DNA of 25,468 nt from a virus. Below are positions 6,848-25,468 of this stretch, one piece after another. Position 1 is the first letter of the stretch, and every line of letters starts with the position of its first letter. The position numbers and the translations under genes were made by a program. The notes under the pieces were generated by a model. The model did no database searches. It worked only from the letters and a program-made list of their open reading frames with translations, and was not told the origin of the DNA. The stretch lies in IMG/VR virus record IMGVR_UViG_3300022074_000341, positions 1 to 25,468 of that record; one strand, 5' to 3'.

Positions 6848-6860
6848 TTATTCCTTCTCC

Positions 6861-9447: not shown

Positions 9448-9452
9448 TTAAA

Positions 9453-9644: not shown

Positions 9645-9663
9645 TTTTACCTCTCTGACTAAA

Positions 9664-9687
9664 GAGCCACCATACGAATGATGGCTC
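9664..9687 (-). terminator. Hairpin after the capsid gene (attenuator-like)
   Basis: On the transcribed strand GAGCCATCAT and ATGGTGGCTC pair over 10 bp (one G-U) around a TCGT loop, followed by TTT. It may dampen transcription or protect the upstream capsid mRNA from 3' decay, giving more capsid than connector. The T-run is short, so full termination is unlikely. It resembles the early-region hairpins. Confidence 0.65.
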
Positions 9688-9709
9688 ATGATAGTCATAA
9701 TCTAATCTC

Positions 9710-10966: not shown

Positions 10967-10977
10967 AAGTATTTCTC

Positions 10978-11769
10978 CTATATTTCTGGGTCATAGCTAT
11001 CAGCTAAAACCCTATTTGTTTCTAATAACAATGTAGTTGCATCAACTGTATCTACTTCATCTTTGAGTTCTTCTGAAGCACCAACATCTAAATAAGTATT
11101 TAAATCTTGATATGCTTCTTGAAGAGCATCTTGTAGATTCATCAGAATACTTGTTGAATTATCTGACAATGTTTTTTCTTTTTTGAGTCTCAAAGCAGTT
11201 AGCTCTTTGAATCTCATAAGAAGAGCAGACAAATTATTAAGTAACTCATCTGACTCATCTGCTAATGTCAAACCAGAGCTATTCTCTGATTTTTCTTTAA
11301 CACCTATTGTATATGTATTTTGATTTGCTCCTACTAGCACTGGGCTTACTTCCCAGACTTTTAATTCTTTTAAGTAACGAGCATCACTTGATTTACCATC
11401 TTTTTGAAATGAACCATTCTCTGAATCCAATACTTCATATCCAAAAGACCATTGCTGTAAATCTCCCATAGCTTTTACTGTTGCATAAGCATCTCTGCCT
11501 TCTTGGGTATCCATTATGAATTGACCTTTAAATGTAGCTTTGTCTCCATCAGATATTATCTCGCCACGACCTATTGGCTTTTTCCAATCGTGAGCCCAGA
11601 CCATTGCTACACCATTTTCTCCATAACCAGATTTAATTGAGTTAGGAAGAACTACATCTCCATCAGAATCTATTTCATTGAATACAGAAAAAACTGCTTC
11701 AACCTTACCTTCTACTTCATTAACTGTTTTTAAGTCTATGGTCTTAGACTCAAATTTTTCTCTATCCAT
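10978..11769 (-). CDS. Prohead protease (HK97 / S78 family)
   Basis: This 263-aa protein has the serine protease pattern of the HK97 prohead family: VFSVFNEIDSDGDVVLPNSI, then the catalytic His within MVWAHDWKKPIGRG (His60), and the catalytic Ser within LQQWSFGYEV (Ser108). DARYLKELKVWEVSPVLVGAN follows, also typical. After about residue 160 there is a helical, Glu/Leu-rich tail that may bind the scaffold domain. It cleaves the capsid protein N-terminal domain inside the prohead. It is followed 11 bases later by the capsid gene, as usual. Confidence 0.93.
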   Translation of the reverse strand: MDREKFESKTIDLKTVNEVEGKVEAVFSVFNEIDSDGDVVLPNSIKSGYGENGVAMVWAHDWKKPIGRGEIISDGDKATFKGQFIMDTQEGRDAYATVKAMGDLQQWSFGYEVLDSENGSFQKDGKSSDARYLKELKVWEVSPVLVGANQNTYTIGVKEKSENSSGLTLADESDELLNNLSALLMRFKELTALRLKKEKTLSDNSTSILMNLQDALQEAYQDLNTYLDVGASEELKDEVDTVDATTLLLETNRVLADSYDPEI

Positions 11770-11771
11770 TT

Positions 11772-15351: not shown

Positions 15352-15358
15352 CTTCTCC

Positions 15359-16624
15359 TCAATAAGCTGTTATTGTCTTCTTCTTTGCAACTTGCAATAT
15401 TCCATAAGCAAGACTATCCACTTGGTCATCATGGTCTCCACTTGGGAATACTAACAGTTCTTTTTCCAAATCAGAATACCACAAAGCATCATTAGGGAAG
15501 AATACCATACCAGCTTCCATTTTTGCTGATAAAGGTAAAGCCCTACTTAACTTATCCTTATCTGCCTTTAACTTTACTATTGGAAGTGTAGTTTGTCTGC
15601 GAATGATTTGAATTAATGCTAACTGGAATCCTGCTGATTCTACTCCTATTGATACTGGATTCCACTTTTCATATACTTGCTCTAACAGCTTTACTATATC
15701 TGGAGCTTCTATTCTTTTACGAATCACATCAAGAACATAAACATTGTTTTGTTTATCCAGTCCGATTGTTGTTACAACTGTATAGTCAGCAGACTCCTTA
15801 GTACTTGTAGCTAAATCAACTGTCGTATATATCTTTAAATCTTCTAATCGAACAGCTCCATCTTGTGTTTGGATATAAACAAAATCTTGATAGTTACCTT
15901 CTTCATTGAACTCACTAAGTGTCTCTCTAGTGTAATACTTGAACCATTCTGATTTTATTAAGCCACCAGACTGTTCAACGAACTGAGCTTCATACTCTTG
16001 ACTAAATAAGAACGAACCTATCTCTCTCTTAGCTATTGAAAGTTCTTCTCTATCAATCATTGGATTGTCATAACTTGAGAACTGCCATCTCTCCCAATCT
16101 GGATTGTTCTCTGCTTCATCATAAAGTCTTTTAAACCAGTTCTGTATTCCTTTTGGTGTTGAGATAAATAAGCAACCACCTTTACGCTCAGTAAGAGTTG
16201 GTCTTAGTACTTCCTTCCAAGTCTGCTCTTTAATGAATGCACACTCATCTAATACAATGAAATCTAAACCAGCACCACGAAGTCTATCTGGATTATCTGC
16301 TGTTCTTACTGTTACGAATCCACCAGACTTTGTATATACAGTCTTCTCTGATTCTTTAACTTCCATGCCATACTTACCAGCTAAGTCTCTTACAGTCTTC
16401 CAACCTTCTAATGCCATTGCATAAGTTGGAGCAACCCACCAAGCATTCTTACCTTCCATAGCTTTAGCTAAACAAAGTAATGTACCTAATCTTGTCTTCC
16501 CAAATCTACGACCAGCAACTAAGATTCTAAATCTTGCTTTTGATTTAGCTACTTCAAGTTGAGCTGGGTGTAGCTTAGGTAGTTTGTATTTAGTCTTATA
16601 GACTTTAAAAATCGTATCCATCAC
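15359..16624 (-). CDS. terL: Terminase large subunit
   Basis: This 421-aa ATPase-nuclease drives DNA packaging. The Walker A motif is GRRFGKT at 38-44, Walker B is IVLDE (Asp126-Glu127) and the coupling motif is STPKG near 155. The C-terminal RNase H-like nuclease shows TTVDLATSTKESADYTVV near 266 (first catalytic Asp), IGVESAGFQLAL, and the last acidic cluster DDQVDSLAYG near 402. The start overlaps the upstream 71-aa gene by 20 bases. Length and motifs are complete. Confidence 0.97.
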   Translation of the reverse strand: MMDTIFKVYKTKYKLPKLHPAQLEVAKSKARFRILVAGRRFGKTRLGTLLCLAKAMEGKNAWWVAPTYAMALEGWKTVRDLAGKYGMEVKESEKTVYTKSGGFVTVRTADNPDRLRGAGLDFIVLDECAFIKEQTWKEVLRPTLTERKGGCLFISTPKGIQNWFKRLYDEAENNPDWERWQFSSYDNPMIDREELSIAKREIGSFLFSQEYEAQFVEQSGGLIKSEWFKYYTRETLSEFNEEGNYQDFVYIQTQDGAVRLEDLKIYTTVDLATSTKESADYTVVTTIGLDKQNNVYVLDVIRKRIEAPDIVKLLEQVYEKWNPVSIGVESAGFQLALIQIIRRQTTLPIVKLKADKDKLSRALPLSAKMEAGMVFFPNDALWYSDLEKELLVFPSGDHDDQVDSLAYGILQVAKKKTITAY

Positions 16625-16820
16625 GAAGCCATCTTAGTAAATCATTAAATATTTCTTCTACTTGCTCTGGTTCTAACTTAGATATGAAATAAATATTTGG
16701 AGCTGGCATTGGAATAATGTATTCCACTGTATCTGCAAACAAATCTTCATCTACTTGATAATCAGAGAAGTTATCTATAACAATATCTACAAACTTCTGA
16801 TTGATTTCTTCTTCATTCAT
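16605..16820 (-). CDS. Small acidic protein between terminase subunits
   Basis: This 71-aa acidic protein (MNEEEINQKFVDIVIDNFSD; EPEQVEEIFNDLLRWLRDG) is predicted helical with a central IPMPAPNIYFISKL stretch. The ATG overlaps the stop of a 36-aa gene (ATGA), and its own end overlaps terL by 20 bases. It could assist the terminase or regulate its translation by coupling. I do not recognise the family. Confidence 0.7.
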   Translation of the reverse strand: MNEEEINQKFVDIVIDNFSDYQVDEDLFADTVEYIIPMPAPNIYFISKLEPEQVEEIFNDLLRWLRDGYDF

Positions 16821-16927
16821 AATTTACAAGAATCTCCACAATCATCTTGAAATTCATTGGAGCTATCAACAAACACTGGGTTGTCTGTAAATAAGTTGTC
16901 TGGAATTACAAATTCATCTTCATTCAT
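16817..16927 (-). CDS. 36-aa acidic micro-protein
   Basis: A 37-codon frame (MNEDEFVIPDNLF at the start, two Cys near the end in DDCGDSCKL) runs from an ATG at 16927 that overlaps the end of the small terminase gene by eight bases, to a TGA overlapping the next ATG (ATGA). It fills an otherwise unexplained gap with flush junctions on both sides. Product is very acidic. Function unknown; it may be a short regulator or a translation-coupling leader for the next two genes. Confidence 0.55.
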   Translation of the reverse strand: MNEDEFVIPDNLFTDNPVFVDSSNEFQDDCGDSCKL

Positions 16928-17429
16928 GATTCTCAAGTGTATCATCTTTCATTTTTTCCTGCTCATCTTCGGGCATATCGGGCATATCTGGTTCATCAGT
17001 GAGCTCTGGAGTTTGAAAATCTTTATATAATTCGCCATCTGAGAACTCCATCTCGACTATTTCTACATCTTCTCTTTGTATCTGTAATTTACTTGTCTCT
17101 CCAAACTGCGTAGGGTATTTTCTCTCAAGTATCCACTGTAAAGCTCTAGGATTTCTGTCTTCTTCTCCTATTTCTTTTATCTTGCGAAGGGTCTCTACTT
17201 TAAACTTTGATTCTCTCTCTTGTATCTTTTCAAACAAATCAACAAAGACTTCTTCTCCTGCATCAGCTCGTTCTCTCCATCTTCTATAAGTTCTTGAGTT
17301 GATTCCAGCAAAAGCACAAGCATCTTCTATGTATGAACCTTCACTAACTGCATATAACAATCTATCTATTATCTCTTCATCTAAGAATTTGTTTTTCTTT
17401 TTTATCCCGAAAATATTTCTATCGCTCAT
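16920..17429 (-). CDS. Terminase small subunit (putative)
   Basis: The N-terminal half of this 169-aa protein has a helix-turn-helix: LYAVSEGSYIEDACAFAGIN followed by SRTYRRWRERADAGEE, the usual DNA-binding layout of small terminases. A central helical oligomerisation region (ERESKFKVETLRKIKEIGEE) and RALQWILERKYPTQFG follow, the latter being very typical of TerS proteins. The C-terminus is acidic with a PDMPDMPEDE repeat, perhaps the TerL-binding tail. It overlaps the methyltransferase stop by 11 bases. It recognises the packaging site in phage DNA. Confidence 0.88.
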   Translation of the reverse strand: MSDRNIFGIKKKNKFLDEEIIDRLLYAVSEGSYIEDACAFAGINSRTYRRWRERADAGEEVFVDLFEKIQERESKFKVETLRKIKEIGEEDRNPRALQWILERKYPTQFGETSKLQIQREDVEIVEMEFSDGELYKDFQTPELTDEPDMPDMPEDEQEKMKDDTLENHE

Positions 17430-18135
17430 TCTTACATCTTTCTTCTGCTATTTGGAAATATTCTTTGTCTAGCTCAATTCCTACAAAGTTTCTGTTTGTA
17501 TTTAGACAAGCTACACCTGTGCTACCACTACCCATTGTAAAGTCTAAAACTGTTTCATTTTCTTTTGTGTATGTTTTTATTAAATATTCTAAAAGTGCTA
17601 TTGGTTTTTGTGTATTATGAAATCTATTAAAATATTTTACTGCTGTAAATTCTAAAGTAGATGTAGGATAATTTGTATATTCACTTCTACCAAAATCTTT
17701 TTCTTTTGAATAAAATGATGTAATGTTATTTCTTTTACTAATATTATTTCTTTTAATATTTGCTTTTACTAAATTTTGTGGATTGTACATTGGTTGTTTT
17801 TTATAAAACATACTTATTAATTCTATATCCAACATTGGTCTTTTTTTTGCATTTAAATGACCAATTCCTTTACTTTTTTTCCAATACCAATCAAATTTAT
17901 ATTCATTAAAATTGCTATTTTTTAAGTTAGTAGCAAATGGTTCTGTTCCAAATAAAGCTATTGCAGTATTATCTTTTCTTATTCTTTTTATTTGTTCCCA
18001 CATTGCATTAAAAGAAATAATATTATCCCAATGCAATCCAGTTTTTCCATAAGGTAAATCAGTTAAAATAAAATCTATTGAGTTATCAGGTAATTCTTTC
18101 ATCACTTCTAAGCAATCGCCATTAAATAGATTCAT
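17419..18135 (-). CDS. DNA adenine/cytosine-N methyltransferase (beta class)
   Basis: This 238-aa protein has motif IV TDLPYG at 25-30 (a DLPY variant of the DPPY family) before the SAM-binding motif FTMGSGSTG at 199-207; this order defines the beta class of amino-methyltransferases. HNTQKPIALLEYLIKTY and VGIELDKEYFQIAEERC are also typical. I start at the ATG at 18135, seven bases after a GGAG site; a TTG one codon upstream is possible. The middle of the gene is visibly more AT-rich than its neighbours, with Asn/Lys runs, suggesting recent acquisition. No restriction partner is near, so self-protection or gene control is likely. Confidence 0.92.
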   Translation of the reverse strand: MNLFNGDCLEVMKELPDNSIDFILTDLPYGKTGLHWDNIISFNAMWEQIKRIRKDNTAIALFGTEPFATNLKNSNFNEYKFDWYWKKSKGIGHLNAKKRPMLDIELISMFYKKQPMYNPQNLVKANIKRNNISKRNNITSFYSKEKDFGRSEYTNYPTSTLEFTAVKYFNRFHNTQKPIALLEYLIKTYTKENETVLDFTMGSGSTGVACLNTNRNFVGIELDKEYFQIAEERCKNER

Positions 18136-18493
18136 CAATTAACTCCACTGGATTATAAAGTTTGTACTTTAAAGTTAGTTCTTCCCCAGATTTAATTGCT
18201 TCTGTTGTATATAAGTTCATCTCAGTCTTATTATCTATTAGTTTGCAATTAGGTTCTTCACTATGATTAACGAATCCACCTAGTGCGGTTCTTATATAAC
18301 CATTTAAAAACTTATGATGATGTACATGTGAGACTCCTAAATCCACTCCCCTATCGATATTTTCTTTAGCAAAAAGCCCTAATCCATCAATATTTGATTC
18401 TTTTATAGTCAAAAAGTAGGGTAGGGGAGTATAGTTTTCTGACATATCTATCTCTTCATCAATATCATCAAGTAATATTTCATCAAAAATCAA
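18122..18493 (-). CDS. Small SET-domain protein (putative protein-lysine methyltransferase)
   Basis: Within 123 aa the SET signatures appear in order: IDGLGLFAKENIDRG (35-49), FVNHSEEPNC (74-83, the NHSxxPNC SAM/pseudoknot motif) and SGEELTLKYKLY (102-112, with the candidate catalytic Tyr110). Pre-SET and post-SET cysteine regions are absent, so this is a minimal domain. The frame starts with TTG at 18493, overlapping the stop of the upstream micro-gene, with AGGAAA about ten bases away; an ATG at 18445 gives MSENYTPLPYF and is an equal candidate. It overlaps the DNA methyltransferase gene by 14 bases. The substrate is unknown. Confidence 0.85.
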   Translation of the reverse strand: MIFDEILLDDIDEEIDMSENYTPLPYFLTIKESNIDGLGLFAKENIDRGVDLGVSHVHHHKFLNGYIRTALGGFVNHSEEPNCKLIDNKTEMNLYTTEAIKSGEELTLKYKLYNPVELIDESI

Positions 18494-18570
18494 ATCTTAT
18501 CTTTCCTAATCATGCTCCATGCAAGTGCATTAATTACAATAATTGCTATCAATACTAAAAAAATATCCAT
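18490..18570 (-). CDS. 26-aa single-pass membrane micro-protein (possible holin-like)
   Basis: The frame begins at an ATG that shares a base with the upstream TAA (TAATG at 18572-18568) after a GAAGAAGAA stretch. The product starts MDIFLVLIAIIVINALAW, nearly all hydrophobic, and ends SMIRKDKI, a classic membrane helix with a basic tail. The stop overlaps the TTG start of the SET gene. It lies two genes downstream of the endolysin. A pinholin- or holin-like role is possible, but there is no homology-based support. Confidence 0.55.
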   Translation of the reverse strand: MDIFLVLIAIIVINALAWSMIRKDKI

Positions 18571-18773
18571 TATTCTTCTTCTCCTACTTCTTCAAACTCA
18601 GTATCAAAATCATCATATCGACTGGTATTTGGTTCAATAAACTGCAATCCAGTTATTTCCATATCTAAGTTTTCTAACAAATCTGCTATCTCTTGTGCTT
18701 TTTTAACAGCAGTAGGAATATCTTTTACAACAAATTCTTTACTCCAACGCCCAATGACTTTTATATTTTTCAC
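18570..18773 (-). CDS. Small acidic protein, unknown function
   Basis: The gene begins with GTG at 18773, with AAAGGA about five bases upstream in the end of the endolysin gene; the overlapping ATG in another frame stops at once. The 67-aa product starts MKNIKVIGRWSKEFVVKDIP, has a helix (TAVKKAQEIADLLENLDMEI) and ends with an acidic tail (FDTEFEEVGEEE). It sits between endolysin and membrane micro-protein with tight junctions, so it may belong to the lysis group, though nothing shows this directly. Confidence 0.7.
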   Translation of the reverse strand: MKNIKVIGRWSKEFVVKDIPTAVKKAQEIADLLENLDMEITGLQFIEPNTSRYDDFDTEFEEVGEEE

Positions 18774-18774
18774 A

Positions 18775-19194
18775 TTATCCTTTCCAACAGCTCTTAGAAC
18801 TATTCCAGTGATGGCTTCCAGACTTATAATAAAGCCATGAGCTCATCTTTAAATTAAACTCTGGGTCTTTCCTATCCCCGAACCAACCTAATTTATTAGA
18901 AATCCAGTCATAAGTTTTGTCATTAAGTTGCATCAAACCTATGTCTCTACTTCCATTACTGTTAGTATTTACAACTTTAGACCGCCCAGAAGATTCACAA
19001 AACATAATTCTGCTAACTTCTATCTGGTCTTCTTGTTTAAAATACTTATCTATTAAGGGAAGCCAAGCTGAGACTGCATCAACTTGGAATACAATCTGCT
19101 TACATTCCTTATAATCTTGAATGATATCTGGTGTTATTGGTTGGCTAAATGCTGTTAGACAACTCATCAAAGGGCTCAAAACTAATTTTATCAT
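18775..19194 (-). CDS. Secreted lysozyme-like endolysin (transglycosylase fold)
   Basis: This 139-aa protein has an N-terminal hydrophobic signal-like segment (MIKLVLSPLMSCLTAFSQ) and a lysozyme/SLT-type domain: RIMFCESSGRSKVVNTNSNG with the candidate catalytic Glu67, then SRDIGLMQLNDKTYDWI and a C-terminal SHHWNSSKSCWKG. Such enzymes cut the glycan chain of peptidoglycan. The signal suggests export by the host, so a large-pore holin may not be required. Its ATG at 19194 lies inside the preceding gene (50-base overlap) without a clear ribosome site. LMSC near residue 12 resembles but does not match a lipobox. Confidence 0.85.
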   Translation of the reverse strand: MIKLVLSPLMSCLTAFSQPITPDIIQDYKECKQIVFQVDAVSAWLPLIDKYFKQEDQIEVSRIMFCESSGRSKVVNTNSNGSRDIGLMQLNDKTYDWISNKLGWFGDRKDPEFNLKMSSWLYYKSGSHHWNSSKSCWKG

Positions 19195-19327
19195 GATAAT
19201 TTTCTGTCGGATTAACCTTCATTATACCTATTGGCATTCTATGTGAGCTCATCTTTTCAGAATCAGTATCAAGCACAATTAACTTTGGCTCTAAACCATC
19301 ATTCTCGATAGCAACTATTTTTTTCAT
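19145..19327 (-). CDS. Small protein at a leaderless promoter, unknown function
   Basis: The 60-aa product starts MKKIVAIENDGLEPKLIVLD and contains PIGIMKVNPTENYHDKISF; it looks like a small beta-rich domain. The ATG lies only six bases after a perfect TATAAT, so the transcript would start at or near the A of ATG (leaderless), and no Shine-Dalgarno is present. It overlaps the endolysin gene by 50 bases. It is the first gene after the phosphoesterase and may lead the late transcript. Family not recognised. Confidence 0.7.
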   Translation of the reverse strand: MKKIVAIENDGLEPKLIVLDTDSEKMSSHRMPIGIMKVNPTENYHDKISFEPFDELSNSI

Positions 19328-19333
19328 GTTTTA

Positions 19334-19339
19334 ATTATA
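19334..19339 (-). promoter_or_regulatory. Candidate late/lysis promoter, -10 TATAAT
   Basis: A consensus TATAAT ends six bases before the ATG at 19327. A TTGATA lies 20 bases upstream, a long spacer, so the -35 is weak or activator-dependent. The palindrome at 19370-19387 is just upstream. It is well placed to drive the endolysin and the packaging and structural genes. Confidence 0.55.
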
Positions 19340-19369
19340 AATCAAGAATTATTAATATTTATCAATACT

Positions 19370-19387
19370 TTGTGAATATTTTCACAA
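19370..19387. promoter_or_regulatory. CRP-type palindrome TTGTGAA-N4-TTCACAA
   Basis: A perfect 7-bp inverted repeat with a 4-base spacer; it contains TGTGA-N6-TCACA, the consensus of CRP/FNR-family regulators including actinobacterial Crp/GlxR. Its centre lies about 51 bases upstream of the predicted start of transcription. It overlaps the stop of the phosphoesterase gene. No T-run follows, so an operator is more likely than a terminator. Confidence 0.55.
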
Positions 19388-20593
19388 GATTTTAAGATTA
19401 TCCCAACCATTTTCTGAAACTGTGAAGGTTAGGATTCCATGCGAAGTAGTTAGACCCATTCTTGCTTCTAGTTCTTTAGAAGTATCAAGAGATGGAGCTT
19501 GAAACCAAGTTCTGCTTCGTTCATGCAAAACTCTTAAATGATGATAATGACCAGTAACAAGAATGTCTGAGCTACCAGATGGAATGCGAGCATGACCCTG
19601 ATTCTTCCACCAGTTCATTAATTTATTCTCTATATTTCCACCGCCACCAGTCATGTGTCCATGATAAAAAGTTAATCTAGTTCCCTTTATATCTAAAGTT
19701 AAATAGAAATCATTGGGAATTACAGTCTTGACATGTTTGTATCTCTCTCTTCCTTCTATAATTTCTCCAACTATTTGAAATATTTGAGTGTCTGAATTAT
19801 CTAATCTTGTTGTTGTAATACTATTTTTACCACTTCTTTGCTCGCCATGATTTCCGACTACAGCTCCCAAGAAAATTTTTGGAGCTAATTTAAGTAATCC
19901 ATCAAGAACTTCCATTAGCATTTTTCTTGCAAGATGTTCTTGCTCAGTTCTAGTGAGCTCGATATTAAAGGGTTGATGGTCAAAGAAGCCATAAATGCAC
20001 TCAATTAAATCTCCTAATCCTATGATATAAATTTCATCTATTGTCTGACCAGATTTATTTAAATTTTTTATTTGCTTCTGGGCTTTTTTTATACCATTCC
20101 TTATGTAATCAATAGTCTCATCAGCTCCCCAGTTAGCATTGTATTCTGATTTTCCAAACTGCCAGTCAGCACAAAAGAACATGAAAGCATTATCTCCAGC
20201 TAGTTCAGAGACTTTAACTGGCTTCTTCTTTGAAATCTGTCGTTCTAATTTTCTAACATAGTCATTGTGCTTTGGTTTTTTTCTTCGGATAGTAGCTTTG
20301 AAAGCATACATCTGAATAACTTGACCACCTTTAGCTTGGGCTTCCCAAGTAGAAAATTTTATTCTGTCTTCTTCTATGTAATATTCATCTGAGTTATAAC
20401 CCCAAGAATCTAAGAGTTCATTGAATTTAAAGTTATCTGATTTAGGTTGCACATGAGTAAGCTCTCCAAGATTTGTGTTATGGTCAAATTCGAGCTTCGG
20501 CTTCCACCCAGAAGGGTAGTAATTATTTCCTAAGTCAAGATTGTGTGCGACTTCTTGCTTATTCTTCGTAAGTTTTTTTGATTCTTTTGTCAT
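19382..20593 (-). CDS. Calcineurin-type metallophosphoesterase
   Basis: In this 403-aa protein residues 1-110 form an N-terminal region (YYPSGWKPKLEFDHNTNLGE; KFSTWEAQAKGGQV) that I know from phosphoesterases of actinobacteriophages. The metal-binding motifs then follow in order: ADWQFG with Asp143, GLGD (Asp195), GNHGE (Asn248-His249), YHGHM (His311/His313) and GHYHH (348-352). The first motif has Gln in place of the usual His. A nuclease role in DNA metabolism, as in Mre11/SbcD-like enzymes, is plausible but not shown. The start at 20593 has no Shine-Dalgarno; a LexA-like box lies directly before it. Confidence 0.88.
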   Translation of the reverse strand: MTKESKKLTKNKQEVAHNLDLGNNYYPSGWKPKLEFDHNTNLGELTHVQPKSDNFKFNELLDSWGYNSDEYYIEEDRIKFSTWEAQAKGGQVIQMYAFKATIRRKKPKHNDYVRKLERQISKKKPVKVSELAGDNAFMFFCADWQFGKSEYNANWGADETIDYIRNGIKKAQKQIKNLNKSGQTIDEIYIIGLGDLIECIYGFFDHQPFNIELTRTEQEHLARKMLMEVLDGLLKLAPKIFLGAVVGNHGEQRSGKNSITTTRLDNSDTQIFQIVGEIIEGRERYKHVKTVIPNDFYLTLDIKGTRLTFYHGHMTGGGGNIENKLMNWWKNQGHARIPSGSSDILVTGHYHHLRVLHERSRTWFQAPSLDTSKELEARMGLTTSHGILTFTVSENGWDNLKIL

Positions 20594-20607
20594 AGAACAT
20601 TTGTTCG
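20594..20607. promoter_or_regulatory. LexA-like box GAAC-N4-GTTC at the start codon
   Basis: The transcribed strand reads CGAACAAATGTTCT, matching 13 of 14 positions of the Gram-positive/actinobacterial LexA consensus CGAACRNRYGTTYG. It covers the predicted transcription start and ends one base before the ATG, so a bound repressor would block both initiation and escape. A chance match somewhere in 25 kb is possible; the position makes it notable. Confidence 0.5.
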
Positions 20608-20612
20608 ATTTT

Positions 20613-20621
20613 ATTCTATCA
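20613..20621 (-). promoter_or_regulatory. Extended -10 promoter TGATAGAAT
   Basis: TG-A-TAGAAT forms an extended -10; the expected start of transcription is near 20606, within the LexA-like box, leaving a 5' untranslated region of about 13 bases with no ribosome site. No good -35 is present. It resembles TGATATAAT at 22799-22807 and TGATATACT at 25271-25279. Confidence 0.45.
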
Positions 20622-20658
20622 TCAAAAATTACTAATTATTGTTTTTGAAATATTTGTT

Positions 20659-20770
20659 GGAGATTGAGTTAAGTGTTCAACATGGTAACCAATAATCTGT
20701 CGCCAGACTGAAAGGAGTATTCAACCAGTTCGGAGCTCTCTTCCGACTCTAATCTTAACTCGATATCTCC
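20659..20770 (-). ncRNA. Candidate structured RNA, 112 nt
   Basis: On the transcribed strand an outer helix GGAGAT/ATCTCC (20765-20770 with 20659-20664) and a second helix GAGTTAAG/CTTAACTC (20754-20761 with 20666-20673) enclose three more: hairpin TCGGA/TCCGA (20730-20746), helix AACTGGT/ACCA-T-GTT (20724-20730 with 20679-20686) and hairpin AGTCTG-GCGA-CAGATT (20694-20709), which has a GNRA loop and a G-U pair valid only on this strand. No gene fits here. It may be a small RNA, a 3' element of the replication operon or part of an origin. A weak TTGTTG/TAATAT promoter lies just upstream. Confidence 0.6.
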
Positions 20771-20779
20771 ATATATTAA

Positions 20780-20793
20780 TTTAGATATCTAAA
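20780..20793. repeat. 14-bp perfect palindrome TTTAGATATCTAAA
   Basis: It overlaps the TAG stop of the replication protein gene and lies ten bases before the structured RNA. It could be a protein-binding site, for example part of an origin or the control site of that RNA. AT-rich palindromes arise by chance more easily, so the call is weak. Confidence 0.4.
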
Positions 20794-21538
20794 CCAACAA
20801 ATCATCTGAAGTAATTCTACAAAATTGACATACTTCAAATTCATTGTCTAGTTGAATCATAGCATGCCCTTCTTCTTCACAATCTCGTGGCTTTGGAATC
20901 TTCTCTACTGATTCCCCTAAGAGAGTCCAATGCTTTACTAATGCATAAGGTGTAAGGGTCATGCCCTTAAATAGCGTTTTGTATTGTGATACCCTGTTAG
21001 GAATATCATCAGCTTTAGCACCAGCTTCTCTTAATTGTTTGATACATTTATTCCAACCAGCTCTCTCAACTTGAGTTGATGGTTGATAACCTATTGCATC
21101 AACTAGAGCATTCCATAATCTTTTTCTATCTTCAAGATTATTTTCCAAAGAATGACTCTGGTTAATTGACTCTAGTTTGTGGGTCTCTGATGAACTAGGG
21201 CTAGTGTCATCTATGACATTGGGTAGGTCATATATGAGCTCTTTACTTCTCATTACTGTATATAAGTTCGAAGTCTGCTCTCCAGTGGCTTTGTCAAACC
21301 GCTTCTGCGACTTGATTGCACCAATGGCTTTTAGTTCCTTTAAAGCACGCTTAATCGTGCTCTCAGAGACATGTATGCGTTCCGATAGCGTTCTAATGCT
21401 AGGAAAGCAAGTACCATCATCTTTGTCTGCATATCTGCATAGAACAGCATAGACCCTAACAGCTTGAGCTGATATTGGGGCATCAATTACCCACTCTGGA
21501 ACTATGCTGAAATATACATCAGACTTTATGTAGTCCAT
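20789..21538 (-). CDS. Winged-helix replication-initiator-like protein
   Basis: Residues about 15-95 of this 249-aa protein are a helix-turn-helix of the HTH_36 type (VRVYAVLCRYADKDDGTCFP; RTLSERIHVSESTIKRALKE) followed by a wing. This domain is typical of plasmid and phage replication initiators, including many in actinobacteriophages. The middle is a Ser-rich linker, then a helical region (RKRLWNALVDAIGYQP). The C-terminus holds a Cys/His set (CEEEGH and CQFC) that could bind zinc. It is the last gene of the coupled operon. A transcription factor role is the alternative. Confidence 0.82.
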   Translation of the reverse strand: MDYIKSDVYFSIVPEWVIDAPISAQAVRVYAVLCRYADKDDGTCFPSIRTLSERIHVSESTIKRALKELKAIGAIKSQKRFDKATGEQTSNLYTVMRSKELIYDLPNVIDDTSPSSSETHKLESINQSHSLENNLEDRKRLWNALVDAIGYQPSTQVERAGWNKCIKQLREAGAKADDIPNRVSQYKTLFKGMTLTPYALVKHWTLLGESVEKIPKPRDCEEEGHAMIQLDNEFEVCQFCRITSDDLLV

Positions 21539-21945
21539 TAAAATGGAGCATCTAAGTCATTGATAGGGTCTTTTGCAATTGGTTCGTTCTTCTCCTTCTC
21601 TTCTAAGAGAGACTTAATTAATTGAGAAGCTCCCAATCCACTTAAACCACTATCGACTTTGCTTTTTGCTGGGTCAGCAACAGACTTTGGAACTTCCTTC
21701 AATAACTTATTAATGAAGTTAAGTTGTTTGTCTGATGGTTCTCCGCCACCACCACTTGATTGTGGCTTTGCAGAATAAGATGATTCGAACTTAGTTTCAA
21801 ATCCATATTTATCCCACATGTGTTCAGCATAAGCATCTGTTGCATCAAGAACTTTATTTACTTCTATCTTGCCAGCAACTGCTAAATCGATTGCTCCTTT
21901 AAATGCAACTTGTGCAATTATTGCTTTATCTTTACTGTTACTCAT
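21538..21945 (-). CDS. Replication-module protein with SSB-like C-terminal tail
   Basis: Residues 1-55 of this 135-aa protein are a helical region (DKAIIAQVAFKGAIDLAVAG), then a Ser/Gly linker, then EPSDKQLNFINKLLKEVPKS with a following helix pair (LGASQLIKSLLEEKEK), a module I have seen in actinobacterial phage and plasmid proteins. The final residues DPINDLDAPF resemble the acidic tip of single-stranded DNA-binding proteins, which recruits replication enzymes. No OB fold is visible. It may thus bring partners to DNA. It overlaps the upstream gene by eight bases and the initiator gene by one. Confidence 0.75.
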   Translation of the reverse strand: MSNSKDKAIIAQVAFKGAIDLAVAGKIEVNKVLDATDAYAEHMWDKYGFETKFESSYSAKPQSSGGGGEPSDKQLNFINKLLKEVPKSVADPAKSKVDSGLSGLGASQLIKSLLEEKEKNEPIAKDPINDLDAPF

Positions 21946-22156
21946 TTATTTCTCCTTTATTGTTTAGTTGTTTAAATCTAGCATCATACTTTTTTTTGTA
22001 TTTATTTGGATACATGTTTAGTTTAATAACCTTCATGTATTCATCAGTCCAGATTCTTCTTTTTTCATTGTCTTTAAGTTTTGGATATAACTTAACCTTC
22101 TCTTCGTTGGTAAGCATTACCCAAATTCTCCAGTGGCTTATTCGTGCTCTCTTCAT
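21938..22156 (-). CDS. Small basic protein, unknown function
   Basis: This 72-aa Lys/Arg/Tyr-rich protein (TNEEKVKLYPKLKDNEKRRI; YPNKYKKKYDARFKQLNN) is probably helical and suited to nucleic acid binding. The ATG at 22156 overlaps the previous stop (ATGA); an internal ATG at 22117 with GGAG about ten bases upstream would give 59 aa and is a real alternative. It sits inside the replication operon. I do not recognise a family. Confidence 0.7.
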   Translation of the reverse strand: MKRARISHWRIWVMLTNEEKVKLYPKLKDNEKRRIWTDEYMKVIKLNMYPNKYKKKYDARFKQLNNKGEINE

Positions 22157-22446
22157 GTTGCTACCAGTCTTAACTGATTTCTCTCTTCAGTATCATCTGG
22201 AGCTTTAACAAGATAGTAAAACACCAAGCCCTGCTTTTTAGAAGGTAAGGTTTCAATATCGAATCCTTCTCTCCTTAGATTATGTATTGAAGTTCCAAAT
22301 CTTGAATAGTTTAAATCATAAATAAACTCTCCATTGGATATTGGTTCTTCATCTCTGTACTTCCTAAGTACATATTCAACTAATGCATGCTTTGATTTAA
22401 CAAAGTATGGAATCGGTTGTCCGCGAAAGTGGGTTACAGTAATCAC
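22153..22446 (-). CDS. Winged-helix HTH_39-type DNA-binding protein
   Basis: This 97-aa protein has KHALVEYVLRKYRDEEPISN, then NYSRFGTSIHNLRREGFDIE, the pattern of the HTH_39 family (recognition by a short IHxLRRxGFxIET motif). It ends with a strand (QGLVFYYLVKAPDD). Such small proteins are frequent in phage early regions as regulators or replication accessories. It is coupled by four-base overlaps to both neighbours. The DNA target is unknown, but the palindromes at the nearby promoters are candidates. Confidence 0.75.
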   Translation of the reverse strand: MITVTHFRGQPIPYFVKSKHALVEYVLRKYRDEEPISNGEFIYDLNYSRFGTSIHNLRREGFDIETLPSKKQGLVFYYLVKAPDDTEERNQLRLVAT

Positions 22447-22673
22447 TTCTGCAACCTACTCTTCGCTCTTGTATCTATTTTAGATTGTACAAACTCATCA
22501 GAGCTCGCCCAATCTTTTATTGTCTGCTCAGTCCATATTGGAGTCGTGCCACCAGATACCACCCATTCGGGTTTTGGTAATCTATCTGCATGATTCCAAG
22601 AAGCAATCGTAGCTCGGTCTAAACCTAAAAGCTGACCCACTTCTTTGACTGACATCAATATCGTGTCATTCAT
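22443..22673 (-). CDS. Excisionase-like HTH protein
   Basis: I start at the ATG at 22673 (MNDTILMSVKEVGQLLGLDR), placed six bases after AAAAGGAG; a longer frame to 22706 lacks a ribosome site. The 76-aa product is a MerR/AlpA-type winged helix: SVKEVGQLLGLDRATIASWN (helix-turn-helix), then RLPKPEWVVSGGTTPIWTEQ with the wing, and an IKDWA helix. These proteins act as excisionases or transcription regulators. No integrase is in the window, so a regulatory role at the nearby promoter is more likely. Confidence 0.8.
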   Translation of the reverse strand: MNDTILMSVKEVGQLLGLDRATIASWNHADRLPKPEWVVSGGTTPIWTEQTIKDWASSDEFVQSKIDTRAKSRLQK

Positions 22674-22715
22674 TATTCTCCTTTTATATTTTATGTTGTT
22701 AAGCATGATGCCTAA

Positions 22716-22778
22716 CCAGTAGGAGTCAGTACATGTGGGCTGTGGAACATGTAGTGAAAGACTTCCAACTCCTACTGG
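22716..22778 (-). promoter_or_regulatory. Leader stem-loop of the replication operon
   Basis: CCAGTAGGAGT and ACTCCTACTGG (22768-22778 and 22716-22726) form a perfect 11-bp stem in the leader, with an inner ACATGT/ACATGT helix. It shares three bases with the palindrome at 22776-22795, so the two structures cannot both form fully. It ends about 40 bases before the first gene, and could control translation or transcription. Confidence 0.6.
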
Positions 22779-22795
22779 CTATGCACCCATAGCCA
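22776..22795. promoter_or_regulatory. 20-bp perfect palindrome at the transcription start (operator-like)
   Basis: TGGCTATG-N4-CATAGCCA has perfect 8-bp arms without G-U pairs, and overlaps the expected +1 of the promoter at 22799-22807. This is the usual position of a repressor operator. It could also act as a 5' hairpin in RNA. Confidence 0.55.
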
Positions 22796-22798
22796 TGT

Positions 22799-22807
22799 AT
22801 TATATCA
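22799..22807 (-). promoter_or_regulatory. Extended -10 promoter TGATATAAT of the replication operon
   Basis: TG-A-TATAAT is a perfect extended -10; the expected start is near 22793. No strong -35 is seen. It precedes the five coupled genes ending at 20789 and overlaps nothing coding, just after the stop of the 73-aa membrane protein gene. Confidence 0.6.
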
Positions 22808-22811
22808 AAGA

Positions 22812-23033
22812 TTATTGATTATGTATTCCTATTTGTTCATCAGTTGCTCTGACAAATTTAGGAATGCCATCTTCATCTTGAAATAATTTTATTGATTCTT
22901 GTCGTAATCTCTCTTCTTTAATACCAAGAACAGAAAAAGCAACAGCAAAGAATCCTAAGAAGCCACCTGCAAAAACAATAGCAAACATCTCATGGAGTTC
23001 TTTTGCATAGAACCATTCTGATAACATAGTCAT
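22812..23033 (-). CDS. Single-pass membrane protein, early region
   Basis: This 73-aa protein has a short N-terminus (MTMLSEWFYAKELHE), one membrane segment at about 16-38 (MFAIVFAGGFLGFFAVAFSV) and a charged cytoplasmic-type tail (KEERLRQESIKLFQDEDGIP). The start has AAGGAGAATT just upstream. Small early membrane proteins of phages often affect host entry exclusion or membrane functions. A holin role is less likely since it lies far from the endolysin, in the early block. Family not recognised. Confidence 0.75.
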   Translation of the reverse strand: MTMLSEWFYAKELHEMFAIVFAGGFLGFFAVAFSVLGIKEERLRQESIKLFQDEDGIPKFVRATDEQIGIHNQ

Positions 23034-23067
23034 AATTCTCCTTCCTTTTAGTTTAGATAATGACCAT

Positions 23068-23124
23068 AGAGCCCACCACTTGTATGTATTAGTACATATA
23101 CAAAAGGGTTATGTGATGAGCTCT
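23068..23124 (-). repeat. Intergenic hairpin, copy 1 of a duplicated element
   Basis: AGAGCTCATCAC pairs with GTGGTGGGCTCT (12 bp, two G-U) around a 33-base loop that itself contains a TGTA-type hairpin. It begins seven bases after the stop of the 40-aa gene. The flanks (stop, TTAGCTAGAGC... and ...GTGGGCTCTATGGT) match the element at 24041-24061. Confidence 0.65.
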
Positions 23125-23130
23125 AGCTAA

Positions 23131-23253
23131 TTACCTGTAAGTTGGTCTGCCCTTCATACCGCTGTTCATACGACCATTGTCAGTTGGTCTGCTACGACCA
23201 CGATATTGAGCACCCTTCTTACTTTTAAGTTTCCTTCTCTGAGCACGATTCAT
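23131..23253 (-). CDS. 40-aa basic micro-protein
   Basis: The frame begins at an ATG overlapping the previous stop (ATGA at 23253-23250), and the product starts MNRAQRRKLKSKKGAQYRG and ends MKGRPTYR. Arg, Lys and Gly dominate, so nucleic-acid binding is plausible. The stop is followed at once by the repeated hairpin element. Coupled start and lack of another use of the sequence support it. Function unknown. Confidence 0.6.
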   Translation of the reverse strand: MNRAQRRKLKSKKGAQYRGRSRPTDNGRMNSGMKGRPTYR

Positions 23254-23597
23254 TCTTCTTCTCTCCAGTAAATCCTCAAGCTACATTTAGGTATTTTTGG
23301 TTTTACTTTTCTAAACCAATCGGTACCATTTCTGGTTGCATCAGATAATCCCTGACTATATTTAGTAGTTGCGGGTGGCATAGAATTTGAAATAGATTGA
23401 GCAATCTTACCTTTTGTAATATTGCTAATATCGTTACTATTTTCAGTTCGTTTATTTTTAGCCATTAGTCCTCTACTACCTAGTCCTGAAACCTCAGTGC
23501 GTTCCCTGCCATCATCTCTTGTTAGTCTTACATGATATGGGGCATATACTTGGGGTTTTATCTCCCAAAAAAACTGCACTGGTGGCATCTTACTCAT
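23250..23597 (-). CDS. Early-region protein of unknown function
   Basis: This 115-aa basic protein starts MSKMPPVQFFWEIKPQVYAP and has a Ser/Asn/Thr-rich, probably flexible middle (RTENSNDISNITKGKIAQSI), then WFRKVKPKIPKCSLRIYWRE. It overlaps the upstream gene by four bases and the 40-aa gene by four. No family is recognised. The mix of a beta start and disordered middle suggests a small DNA- or protein-binding factor. Confidence 0.65.
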   Translation of the reverse strand: MSKMPPVQFFWEIKPQVYAPYHVRLTRDDGRERTEVSGLGSRGLMAKNKRTENSNDISNITKGKIAQSISNSMPPATTKYSQGLSDATRNGTDWFRKVKPKIPKCSLRIYWREEE

Positions 23598-23830
23598 TCT
23601 TCTTCTCCAAAGAACTGCTTCTTCATAAGCTCTGGAGTCTCAGTATCTTCTCGATACCAGACATAGAACTTACCAGAAGTAATGTTCTGCTCTTGGATAT
23701 CCTTCCAGTTTGAATAACCTAGTTGAATATTCTTATCAAACATCTTGCTGTAAAGTGCGTGAGCTTTTTCGTATGTCTCAGCTTCTACAACAAAATCAAC
23801 AGTGAATGTCTCATGGAATTTGAACTTCAT
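23594..23830 (-). CDS. Early-region acidic protein of unknown function
   Basis: This 78-aa protein begins MKFKFHETFTVDFVVEAETY followed by a helix (EKAHALYSKMFDKNIQLG) and KFYVWYREDTETPELMKKQF. An alternating beta-alpha-beta pattern is likely. It overlaps its neighbours by four bases on both sides and has GGAGAAG upstream. Function unknown. Confidence 0.7.
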   Translation of the reverse strand: MKFKFHETFTVDFVVEAETYEKAHALYSKMFDKNIQLGYSNWKDIQEQNITSGKFYVWYREDTETPELMKKQFFGEEE

Positions 23831-23997
23831 GATTCTTCTCCTAGTCTTTTGTAATCGTATGAGCTGTAACCATTTATTGCTTTGAAGGATATTTCAAATA
23901 TTCTTCTAGCATATTTCCAACCCATTCTTTTTAAATAAGTATCTCTCTTATCTAACTTCTCACATGCATATAATGCAAGTTTATTGAATCTCTTCAT
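23827..23997 (-). CDS. Small basic early protein
   Basis: I place the start at 23997, where AAAAGGAGAAG precedes ATG by a few bases; the longer frame to 24051 would include this ribosome site and part of the hairpin. The 56-aa product (MKRFNKLALYACEKLDKRDT; KYARRIFEISFKAINGYSSY) is basic and helical. It is followed with a four-base overlap by the 78-aa gene. No family is recognised. Confidence 0.7.
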   Translation of the reverse strand: MKRFNKLALYACEKLDKRDTYLKRMGWKYARRIFEISFKAINGYSSYDYKRLGEES

Positions 23998-24040
23998 TCT
24001 TCTCCTTTTGTTTTTGTAAGTAATCTTATGATTACCATAA

Positions 24041-24061
24041 AGCCCACTCAAAGAATGGGCT
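24041..24061 (-). repeat. Intergenic hairpin, copy 2 of a duplicated element
   Basis: AGCCCATTC and GAGTGGGCT pair over 9 bp (one G-U) with a TTT loop, eight bases after the stop of the 77-aa gene. The flanks (stop, TTAACTAGAGC... and ...GTGGGCTTTATGGT) match the element at 23068-23124 closely. Confidence 0.65.
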
Positions 24062-24069
24062 CTAGTTAA

Positions 24070-24303
24070 TCACTTAATGTAATTATCAGATATCTCTATC
24101 TTGAGATTCTTTACTGTACTTGCAATATCAAATCTATCTCCATAAGTTAATTTAGTATCAATTAAGTATGCAACGATTTGTTTGCAATATTCTGCATCAG
24201 ATTTCATCTCATCAACAGAGCTGTATCTTGCTTCTAATAAACTCTCTGCATCAGAATATTCATCAGCAATGAGTTCTAGTATTTTGTCTTTTAGTTCTTC
24301 CAT
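24070..24303 (-). CDS. Small acidic helical early protein
   Basis: This 77-aa protein (MEELKDKILELIADEYSDAE; EMKSDAEYCKQIVAYLIDTK) is acidic and helical, ending with a beta segment (LKIEISDNYIK). AAAAAAGGAGAATC precedes the ATG. It lies 12 bases after the 132-aa gene and ends at the duplicated hairpin. Small acidic proteins of phages often inhibit host enzymes, but nothing specific is visible here. Confidence 0.72.
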   Translation of the reverse strand: MEELKDKILELIADEYSDAESLLEARYSSVDEMKSDAEYCKQIVAYLIDTKLTYGDRFDIASTVKNLKIEISDNYIK

Positions 24304-24315
24304 GATTCTCCTTTT

Positions 24316-24714
24316 TTAGTCTTTACTATTGAATGCTGAATAATTGTGGATAACACTATCATCAAAATCTCTGTTTGATGGTTTTGTTTTATCTGCATCA
24401 ACATCAACATCATCATCATCAACAAGAGTCAATGTGATTTTATATTTAGCACCATCTAGCATTGGGAAGTCTATAAGACCCATTCCCATAAATCCATCAT
24501 GATAAACACTGTTATCAGTTAGATTTATGTATTTGTACCCAAAGTGATTTGGCTTGATTGCGTGGAAGTCTCCATCATATTTGTAATGTGGAACACCAGA
24601 ATCATTTACATAGACTGGCTTCCTAACTGTTGAGCTAGTTTTATATTTCCAAGCATTGTAGCTTTTCACTAAAAGCTGTTTTGGTATGTATGCATAATAT
24701 TTTGTTTTCTTCAT
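24316..24714 (-). CDS. Early-region protein with acidic C-terminal part, unknown function
   Basis: The N-terminal 90 residues of this 132-aa protein (MKKTKYYAYIPKQLLVKSYN; NHFGYKYINLTDNSVYHDGF) are Tyr- and Lys-rich with beta tendency, followed by a run of Asp (LVDDDDVDVDADKTKPSNRD). ACAAAAGGAGAAAATA precedes the ATG, nearly identical to the site of the upstream gene. No family is recognised. Confidence 0.72.
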   Translation of the reverse strand: MKKTKYYAYIPKQLLVKSYNAWKYKTSSTVRKPVYVNDSGVPHYKYDGDFHAIKPNHFGYKYINLTDNSVYHDGFMGMGLIDFPMLDGAKYKITLTLVDDDDVDVDADKTKPSNRDFDDSVIHNYSAFNSKD

Positions 24715-24743
24715 TTTATTTTCTCCTTTTGTTTTTTGTTAGT

Positions 24744-24791
24744 GATACTTTATAAGTATCTATCAGCTCTCCCGAAGAAGAGCTGTTAGAT
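24744..24791 (-). terminator. Tandem hairpins with a UUCG loop
   Basis: Directly after the 73-aa gene, CAGCTCTTC-TTCG-GGAGAGCTG forms a 9-bp stem with a C(UUCG)G loop, extended by ATCTA/TAGAT past an A-A mismatch (24758-24791). A second hairpin GATACTT-ATA-AAGTATC (24744-24760) shares three bases with it. No T-run follows; mRNA stabilisation or processing is more likely than termination. Confidence 0.6.
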
Positions 24792-24793
24792 AA

Positions 24794-25015
24794 TTACTTG
24801 TCTTGATAAAACTCAACAGCAAGTGGAGCACATGTATTACAGAAGAATCCATAACAAGCTAAAAAGAATGATGAAGCTGGAGCATATCCTTTGCTCTCAT
24901 CTATCTTCTCTCCATAGTTTGTAGAATCTAGTTGCACTTTACATGTTTGATTTCCACATGATGTCTCATGCTTGATTAAGTTATCGTAATTTACTTCTGG
25001 TTTAAAAGTAGCCAT
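24794..25015 (-). CDS. Small Cys-rich early protein (possible zinc binder)
   Basis: I start at the ATG at 25015 (MATFKPEVNYDNLIKHETSC), preceded by AAAGGAG; a frame reaching 25090 has no ribosome site and crosses hairpins. The 73-aa product has Cys in SCGNQTC and again in ACYGFFCNTC, a CxxxxC ... CxxxxCxxC arrangement that could bind zinc or form disulfides. It is the first gene of the early block after the long leader. Function unknown. Confidence 0.75.
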   Translation of the reverse strand: MATFKPEVNYDNLIKHETSCGNQTCKVQLDSTNYGEKIDESKGYAPASSFFLACYGFFCNTCAPLAVEFYQDK

Positions 25016-25263
25016 TGTATTTTCTCCTTTTGTATTTAGTGTGGAAGTAATTCTTCCAATCTGCCCACCTAGTAGATGAGCAGTTTGCAAAAATCTTTCG
25101 TATCCTTTCCTCGAGAGCGGTTCTCATTTTGATTTCGGTAGTCAGCCCCAGTTTTGCGATACTGGCTCGAGCCTATGTCTCAAAGTCTTTTTTCACTTCT
25201 CTTCAATTTGGCTTATTTTCTGTCTGGTTAGCTTTCCAGTTTCCCAAGCTGTCTCTCTTGGTA
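25016..25263 (-). promoter_or_regulatory. Long GC-richer leader with several hairpins
   Basis: About 250 bases without a convincing gene, between the early promoter and the first ribosome site. On the transcribed strand I see CCAAG/CTTGG (25244-25261, near the 5' end), CTGG/CCAG (25224-25239), CCAGT/ACTGG (25148-25165), GAGA/TCTC (25113-25125), a 10-bp stem CTGCTCATCT/AGGTGGGCAG (25061-25083, two G-U) and GGAAG/CTTCC (25043-25057). The G+C content is above that of the surroundings. No known riboswitch consensus was matched. Confidence 0.5.
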
Positions 25264-25270
25264 TGTAATA

Positions 25271-25279
25271 AGTATATCA
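25271..25279 (-). promoter_or_regulatory. Early promoter, extended -10 TGATATACT
   Basis: TG-A-TATACT is an extended -10 with TTGGTA 15 bases upstream as a poor -35. The start of transcription would fall near 25264, three bases before the first leader hairpin. It is likely the promoter of the early block. Confidence 0.5.
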
Positions 25280-25344
25280 TAAATCAAAGATTACCAATTA
25301 TTAATTGTATAAATATAAAAAAAACCATACAAAAAAGCTAGTGT

Positions 25345-25384
25345 TTATAGGGTCTAAATATTTTTTTTATTTTTTTTATATTTT
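25345..25384. repeat. Low-complexity A/T tract
   Basis: The plus strand reads T8-A-T8-ATA-T6, that is long A-runs on the transcribed strand, between the stop of the partial gene and the early promoter. It could be an easily melted or bent stretch, such as an upstream promoter element. No hairpin accompanies it. Confidence 0.45.
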
Positions 25385-25468
25385 TTAGCCAAAAAAAGCC
25401 ATAAGACCTGTCAATGAAACCACTCCAGCAGTTACCCAACCAAAGAGCTCTTGCCTTCCAACTTTGCC
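25385..25468 (-). CDS. Partial membrane protein (5' end outside window)
   Basis: The frame is open from the window edge to a TAA at 25387-25385. The last 27 residues, starting GKVGRQELFGWVTAGVVSL and ending TGLMAFFG, include one hydrophobic membrane segment. Only the C-terminus is present, so family and length cannot be judged. The A/T tract follows immediately. Confidence 0.5.
   Translation of the reverse strand, partial: GKVGRQELFGWVTAGVVSLTGLMAFFG

Follow-up and report, generated by a model that had tools for sequence, protein, structure and literature searches.

A repeated folded intercistronic RNA module at small-gene junctions of mostly uncultured phages

The window, by which we mean the whole stretch of DNA analysed here, is a linear record of an uncultured virus, 25,468 bases long, with nearly all of its genes on the minus strand. 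Capsid, portal, terminase and other genes lie at the left of the window, and small genes, mostly without an assigned family, lie at its right end. A protein search with a 115-aa ORF found no relatives, and no tRNA was found in the window. A SET-domain protein (PF00856, E 5.6e-10) is encoded at 18122–18493 on the minus strand, and an intergenic gap of ~190 nt at 20600–20790 on the same strand folds somewhat better than its shuffles (z −1.6). The hairpins from which this analysis started lie on the minus (coding) strand, in the leaders of small early genes. A typical element consists, in order, of the upstream stop codon, an outer helix (ext-H1), an inner stem (H1), a small hairpin that reuses the 3′ strand of ext-H1 (H2), an A-rich linker, a Shine-Dalgarno sequence and an AUG.

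We refer to the leaders of this kind in the window, all on the minus strand, as L1 to L5 and to loci from other records by three-digit labels. Two copies had been described in the original prediction, and both are present as described, each directly after a stop codon: at 24072–24019, TGA is followed by TTAACTAGAGCCCAT / GTGGGCTTTATGGT, and at 23131–23051, TAA is followed by TTAGCTAGAGCTCAT / GTGGGCTCTATGGT with a loop region of 35 nt. The former belongs to L3 (23997–24072), a type-2 leader of the ORF starting at 23997, which begins with the TGA stop (24072–24070) of the gene at 24303–24070. Its parts are ext-H1 (24071–24067/24034–24030), H1 (24064–24053/24049–24038) and H2 (24036–24030/24025–24019), and its two states have predicted energies of −23.2 and −22.6 kcal/mol. 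The latter belongs to L4 (23034–23131), also type 2, which precedes the ORF starting at 23033 and begins with the TAA stop (23131–23129) of a 40-residue ORF immediately upstream; ext-H1 is TAAT/ATTA, H1 is TAGAGCTCATCAC/GTGGTGGGCTCTA around the 35-nt loop region, and there is no clear H2. Calling the element duplicated was right as to its repetition but understated it, since the copies belong to a multi-copy family. Two similar leaders, at 24796–24712 (L2) and 22814–22674 (L5), had been missed, and only the stem at 25061–25083, which is real, had been noticed in L1. L1 (25013–25094; small ORF starting at 25018), which no upstream gene directly precedes, comprises ext-H1, H1 (CTGCTCATC/GGTGGGCAG), H2 (GGAAG/CTTCC), a linker and AAAGGAG. 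L2 (24712–24796; ORF starting at 24714; 96.2 bits) is a type-1 leader whose first codon, TAA (24796–24794), is the upstream stop. Its H1 lies at 24785–24777/24772–24764, the 5′ arm of H2 (24760–24754) overlaps the 3′ strand of ext-H1, and the 3′ arm of H2 lies at 24750–24744; the two states are predicted at −19.8 and −19.1 kcal/mol. L5 (22674–22814; ORF starting at 22673), with relatives at loci L015 and L020, has a long stem (CCAGTAGGAGT/ACTCCTACTGG) followed by GTTAGGCAtcaTGCTTAAC (H2), a linker and AAAGGAG. A further predicted stem, at 9664–9687 on the minus strand, is also real but lies 3′ of the capsid gene, where a perfect 10-bp stem (GAGCCATCAT/ATGGTGGCTC) sits inside an outer stem (TGACT/AGTCA) and the second hairpin, H2, is absent. 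It recurs in relatives; we set it aside as a candidate that is akin to the element in layout only.

Several observations touch these leaders. The apical loop of H1 tolerates insertions of ~30–75 nt with the outer arms intact (L026 at 1369 and 3067, L084 at 12466–12603, and L4 and L5 in the window). Immediately before L4, a small basic ORF (MNRAQRRKLKSKK...) lies at 23129–23251 on the minus strand; a similar ORF with the motif NRAQRR lies 3′ of the hairpin in Dickeya phage Irene, and an ORF starting MNRKQRRKLKSKK sits in a leader of L106. The product of the basic ORF beside L4 is a possible candidate for an RNA-binding partner. Before L1, the non-coding region at 25090–25270 (minus strand) contains ~70 nt (ACATACCAAGAGAGACAGCTTGGGAAACTGGAAAGCTAACCAGACAG...) that are identical in four aligned sequences, two of which have differing flanks. 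In three of the four, a promoter-like TATACT immediately precedes this block, which folds into two small hairpins with loops that look complementary; a pattern for it matched only four IMG/VR stretches, all from already known loci. A control RNA at the start of the transcript, for example an antitermination site, is one possible role for it.

A covariance model was built from eight sequences, namely L2 and seven copies from related contigs that were located via terminase and nuclease homology. This model recovers L1 (25094–25013, 40.5 bits, E 1.3e-4) and L3 (24072–23990, 33.5 bits, E 0.004), neither of which was used in building it, with E-values that are rough. Pattern scans of IMG/VR found 74 stretches with the type-1 outer letters, with up to five copies each, and 11 stretches with the type-2 pattern. 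A looser type-2 scan gave at least 120 stretches, many of which proved on reading to be chance matches inside genes; 18 of the 116 matches read in new loci pass a filter that requires three additional stem pairs and, downstream, an ORF of ≥30 codons. Because most type-1 loci came from a pattern that fixes the outer letters, the invariance of those letters is partly ascertainment. A model search over 81 sources yielded 193 matches at E ≤0.05, some of which are opposite-strand echoes. Further sequence types with the same layout occur at L102 (1172–1231), L108 (1862–1921), L085 (near 1001), L110 (near 6371), L128 (near 6806) and elsewhere, and some are hybrids, with outer strands typical of one type and an inner stem typical of another. 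The type-1 pattern also occurs in six GTDB stretches, which were discounted because, by rough estimate, about as many would be expected by chance given the size of the collection, and Blast of two type-1 elements against cultured phages returned nothing convincing.

Genomic context was read from 216 matches, consisting of 150 aligned rows from the 81-source search and the first 66 of 102 rows from the eight-sequence model. Removal of overlaps (opposite-strand palindrome copies and places reported twice) left 187 matches, which represent 126 distinct contexts. An upstream ORF of at least 45 codons is present in 102 of these contexts, and its stop codon coincides with nt 1 of the element in 67, falls within −7 to +1 in 89 and lies elsewhere in 13; several elements in which nt 1–3 are TGA instead of TAA likewise begin with the stop. 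A script recognised a start codon preceded by a Shine-Dalgarno sequence in 99 of the 126 contexts, and by eye many of the remaining 27 have a start slightly further on, two are truncated by a contig end and a few are without a clear start in the stretch read. The downstream products belong to unrelated protein families, in up to 55 clusters, a number that is an upper bound because contig ends truncate some products. A makes up 66% of the linker, and the ribosome-binding site is predicted to be open, with a mean unpaired probability in the Shine-Dalgarno region of 0.72 (n = 74) compared to 0.52 (n = 180) at closely spaced starts. Among 500 intergenic gaps in these operons, 180 are ≤15 nt, 40 are 16–55 nt, 153 are 56–160 nt and 127 are 161–400 nt. 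Stop-codon readthrough or fusion was considered and rejected, as stop-to-AUG distances modulo 3 are distributed 22/31/16 (n = 69) with no excess of 0.

Compensatory changes occur in each of H1, ext-H1 and H2, and sequence drifts while structure stays. Read as counts rather than probabilities, because the type-1 alignment comes from a fit to the model and kinship among the sequences is not corrected for in the shuffles, 97.8% of the paired cells in type 1 (109 strong matches, 88 distinct) hold standard pairs compared to 84.5% in column shuffles, and pairing drops to 24–50% when the partner is slid by 1–3 columns. Both-sided changes are found in 10 of 13 type-1 pairs, and for H1 in all 8 modelled pairs across the 88 distinct sequences. 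The corresponding counts for type 2, from an alignment of 16 of the 17 listed sequences with L3 included, are 98.1% paired compared to 78.2% shuffled and 36–55% slid, with both-sided changes in 5 of 7 pairs of ext-H1. On the transcribed strand, the non-Watson-Crick cells comprise 96 G-U, 2 A-C and 23 others in type 1 (88 distinct) and 32 G-U, 1 A-C and 4 others in type 2 (16 sequences). The original argument from G-U pairs thus extends beyond the window, and the great excess of G-U over A-C indicates that selection acts on RNA. Together with the compensatory changes and the fixed stop-to-Shine-Dalgarno placement, it strongly supports the RNA-level reading of the hairpins.

The 5′ flank of H1 pairs with its 3′ flank to form ext-H1, and the same 3′ flank pairs further downstream to form H2. 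Built around a constant and stable hairpin, the element has two helices with one strand in common, and only one of them can form at a time. Flank pairs were parsed from all but 4 of 148 gathered elements, and L4 is not among the pairs listed; dropping near duplicates and four mis-parsed or differently built cases (stem of at least 17 pairs) reduced 76 distinct pairs to 21 representatives. The ext-H1 duplex has an energy of −7.15 kcal/mol with its own partner and −3.43 kcal/mol with swapped partners (0/10000 permutations; 21 representatives). For H2, the values are −5.9 and −2.93 kcal/mol (0/10000 permutations; 20 of 21 representatives) in a test that favours the own partner by construction, and the own-minus-swapped difference of −3.12 compares with −1.15 (sd 0.39) in shuffled controls. 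Ext-H1 and H2 overlap by 2–10 nt in 20 of the 21 representatives. The predicted energy difference between the two states in type 1 has a median of −0.4 kcal/mol, with 87% of cases within 2 kcal/mol (82 of 88 parsed), which amounts to roughly one observation because type 1 is nearly invariant outside H1; for type 2, the predicted median is −1.3 kcal/mol and 8 of 13 cases fall within 2 kcal/mol (13 of 16 sequences have H2). A layout detector was positive in 144 of 252 leaders of 45–220 nt, compared to 37 in each of two shuffled sets, a result to be read as enrichment only, since type 1 was in part the basis on which loci were selected and ~15% of the shuffled leaders are positive too. The positives comprise 48 of 48 type-1 leaders and 96 of 204 others, many of them unrelated in sequence. 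H2 is missing in 3 of 16 type-2 sequences and is absent or weak in L4 (by eye), in its relatives L015b, L040b and L052b and, by eye, in two of three elements of phage PJNS034 and in both elements found in TacPo2.

Related phages without the stems, which the original prediction had regarded as decisive against it, occur at single orthologous junctions; absence of this kind points to gain and loss rather than to absence of function. The gene after L3 is preceded by the element in the window and in L040 and has a closely spaced start without it in L145, L086 and L156. The gene at 24303 follows a gap of 12 nt in the window and lacks the element in L145 but has it in L144, L151 and L053. A phrog_2 terminase 44–99% identical to that of the window is encoded in 16 of 43 longer records. 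Model matches occur in 7 of 10 fetched contigs (loci of the same record: L098, L099, L103, L107, L120, L121 and L133); none of the 10 contains a relative of the terminase, portal or capsid protein of the window (E 1e-4), although 6 of them share its nuclease (41–51%).

Matches to L3 were obtained in the cultured Escherichia phage PJNS034 (E 2e-5) and Dickeya phage Irene (E 2e-4). The PJNS034 match starts at the annotated stop of WWV92020.1, 86 nt before WWV92021.1, and hairpins based on a stop codon occur at two more junctions of this phage. Pantoea phage TacPo2 has DNA 78% identical over 65% of the query in comparison with PJNS034; at the TacPo2 junction that matches PJNS034 52360, the outer arms are kept and the whole inner stem is swapped for another complementary one, a second corresponding junction is without the element and a third gains one (orthology taken from gene order). 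Pectobacterium phage PP16 and its kin, which are podoviruses, have a similar hairpin at the stop of gp04. Vibrio phage matches were dismissed as chance, having been read at one record (L321), where the 23-nt match falls within a long CDS and a second arm is not apparent. We conclude that the element is a repeated folded intercistronic RNA module, present at many small-gene junctions of mostly uncultured phages, for which we infer a role below. It probably acts in cis and is reused in phage early operons that, from their layout alone, appear to be co-transcribed.

Our leading reading of that role, to which we give a probability of about 0.4, is a T7-like RNase III cut in ext-H1, after which H2 would cap the newly made 5′ end. 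An RNase III-type nuclease would cut the ~20-bp helix of ext-H1 and H1 close to its internal loop, in the manner of the T7 processing signals. The cut would separate the cistrons and leave H1 as a protective 3′ end of the upstream mRNA; it would also free the shared strand, allowing H2 to fold and cap the new 5′ end within a few nt, and the A-rich open linker would give the downstream gene a strong ribosome entry of its own. The cut would be delayed while a ribosome terminating at the stop codon occupies the 5′ arm of ext-H1, and copies without H2 would be expected to provide just separation and 3′ protection. Processing is favoured by the size and irregularity of the helix (ext-H1 and H1 span ~19–21 positions in type 1 and lie between ORFs), by the T7 precedent and by a shared strand able to become a new 5′ terminus; we infer that an offset of 13 nt from the base of the type-1 helix lands on the A-A mismatch, 3 nt before H2. 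Copies in which H2 is absent or weak tell against RNase III processing, as does conservation, nearly complete in the outer sequence of type 1 and also present in the internal-loop letters, which could mean a specific protein. Such a protein might be a phage or host RNA-binding regulator that recognises the internal-loop letters (AGC/TGG; A-A mismatch) and jointly controls the genes bearing the element, a reading suggested by the conservation of these letters while the stems on either side vary. We nevertheless regard a regulator as improbable, as no candidate protein has emerged and two competing helices would be superfluous for it. A stronger competitor, although in our view still on the unlikely side, is a translation insulator that senses the terminating ribosome: with the 5′ arm of ext-H1 hidden under a ribosome on the stop codon, H2 would form, H1 would block sliding post-termination ribosomes and the downstream gene would start afresh on the open A-rich site, whereas without upstream translation ext-H1 would close and alter the standby region. 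The stop codon at nt 1 in 67 of 102 contexts fits this, as do its persistence as TGA, the start of H1 ~12 nt past the first base of the stop codon, close to where the footprint of a terminating ribosome would end, the often short or overlapping form of other operon junctions and the open Shine-Dalgarno region. Insulation explains the stop codon better than RNase III processing does but L1 worse: L1-type leaders keep ext-H1 and H2 despite having no upstream gene, which suits 5′-end processing better than ribosome sensing, and because neither state pairs with the Shine-Dalgarno sequence, the two states give no obvious on/off.

The occurrence of one element before up to 55 protein families and its gain and loss at orthologous junctions would also be expected if the leaders were recombination cassette junctions, short homologies that shuffle small early genes with RNA function secondary, as proposed for PeSL. 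Identity over the first 9 nt of the H1 5′ arm is seen in 17% of same-locus pairs with different genes compared to 4.6% of unrelated pairs, but it is commoner still (31%) in same-gene pairs from different loci. Compensatory change and the G-U bias, moreover, require selection on RNA, and a drifting sequence with a kept structure is the opposite of what homologous recombination needs; we think it rather improbable that recombination is the primary role. Least probable by far is a promoter, a terminator or a DNA-level site such as an operator, attC-like site or cruciform. Inverted repeats are compatible with such a site, and ESAS repeats of Cluster K mycobacteriophages overlap putative promoters (in the part of PMC11373665 available to us), but the G-U to A-C ratios of 96:2 and 32:1 are strand-specific, and the stems are without a T-run. 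A consensus scan of window 5469–25468 listed no terminator-like sites on the minus strand of the early leaders, and an intrinsic terminator was rejected; of the RNA-level functions that had been predicted, intrinsic attenuation is therefore unlikely, because no T-run follows the stems. The same region contains 42 sigma-70-like sites compared to 72 in shuffles, by a consensus that may not be that of the host, and none was seen by eye to be common to the leaders; a sigma-70 promoter was rejected on this ground and because the letters of the candidate −10 box covary with the bases they pair with (GATAC/GTATC to GCTAC/GTAGC). Integron attC sites follow a core rule of RYYYAAC/GTTRRRY boxes. Type 1 has ATCTAAC but GATAGAT, in which the fixed GTT is missing, and an attC site was rejected; GTTAGGC is present in some L5-like leaders, and the matching left box is absent in L5.

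With RNase III-type processing as the leading reading, we tentatively propose that the element represents a phage RNA device of a new class. This would be a stop-to-start linker with the upstream stop codon built into its outer strand and with two folds of near-equal energy, between which a nuclease cut or a terminating ribosome would choose, so that each small early gene would become its own stable, independently translated message. Its sequence would drift while its three-strand logic is kept, and it would move between unrelated genes and phages. In marine phage early regions, which are rich in genes without assigned function, the element would be a punctuation mark for the end of one expression unit and the start of the next. 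It offers a naturally varied set of bistable RNAs, and with copies in an E. coli phage, the choice between processing and ribosome sensing is decidable in a standard strain. If the two-state reading is true, the element would also be a ready-made modular part for polycistronic constructs.

Our literature search, with most subscription papers outside its reach, found no published description of the element. Searches with Rfam 15 gave no gathering-level match in the window or in nine relatives, and in seven further loci only RAGATH-22 appeared at E ≤2 (30.6 of 120.3 bits); a known Rfam family was rejected, with no score at threshold. The freshwater-2 RNA (RF02980) resembles the element in having two hairpins followed by AAAGGAGAAAA and AUG, and it has two full-length weak matches, L1 and L2, that end exactly at the start codon (20.8 and 20.4 bits, E about 5); it differs in that its hairpins are separated rather than overlapping in the alignment, and the matches are below the gathering score of 49.9. 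The put antitermination RNAs of HK022 likewise consist of two adjacent RNA hairpins in early phage transcripts but, to our knowledge, are not tied to the start codon of each gene.

A matching hairpin right after a stop codon is found in a Pectobacterium Kotilavirus of the Autographiviridae, the family of T7, and we know of no second overlapping hairpin or stop-codon base at T7 sites. The element shares the T7-type trait of a ~20-bp irregular intergenic hairpin between early genes, with co-transcription taken from layout. The T7 RNase III processing signals (R1.1 and others) are irregular hairpins of ~60 nt between early genes, and a single RNase III cut of R1.1 RNA gives 47 and 13 nt (both from the accessible part of PMC4858673). 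PeSL of T4-type phages, as cited in an excerpt of PMC4503421, resemble the element in being stem-loop cassettes that recur in variable regions, between small early genes; according to a title cited there, they carry an early promoter and a terminator stem-loop, of which neither is evident in the present element, with no T-run in the minus-strand early leaders. The SAS/ESAS of Cluster K mycobacteriophages are repeats just before the starts of many unrelated non-structural genes and, like the element, include inverted repeats upstream of the Shine-Dalgarno sequence (PMC3203893, in part). The 13-nt GGGATAGGAGCCC around the Shine-Dalgarno sequence that marks SAS is absent from the leaders read, which show AAAGGAG or GAAAGGAG. 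As far as the available part of PMC11373665 goes, RNA pairing of the ESAS repeats is generally unsupported and later work placed SigA-like promoters in them, whereas the present element has strongly supported pairing and no evident promoter. Within the accessible portions of PMC3203893, PMC11373665 and PMC12699233, the nearest published analogue is thus SAS/ESAS, with repeats generally without RNA covariation; unlike the 17-nt inverted repeats of ESAS, the repeats described here covary.
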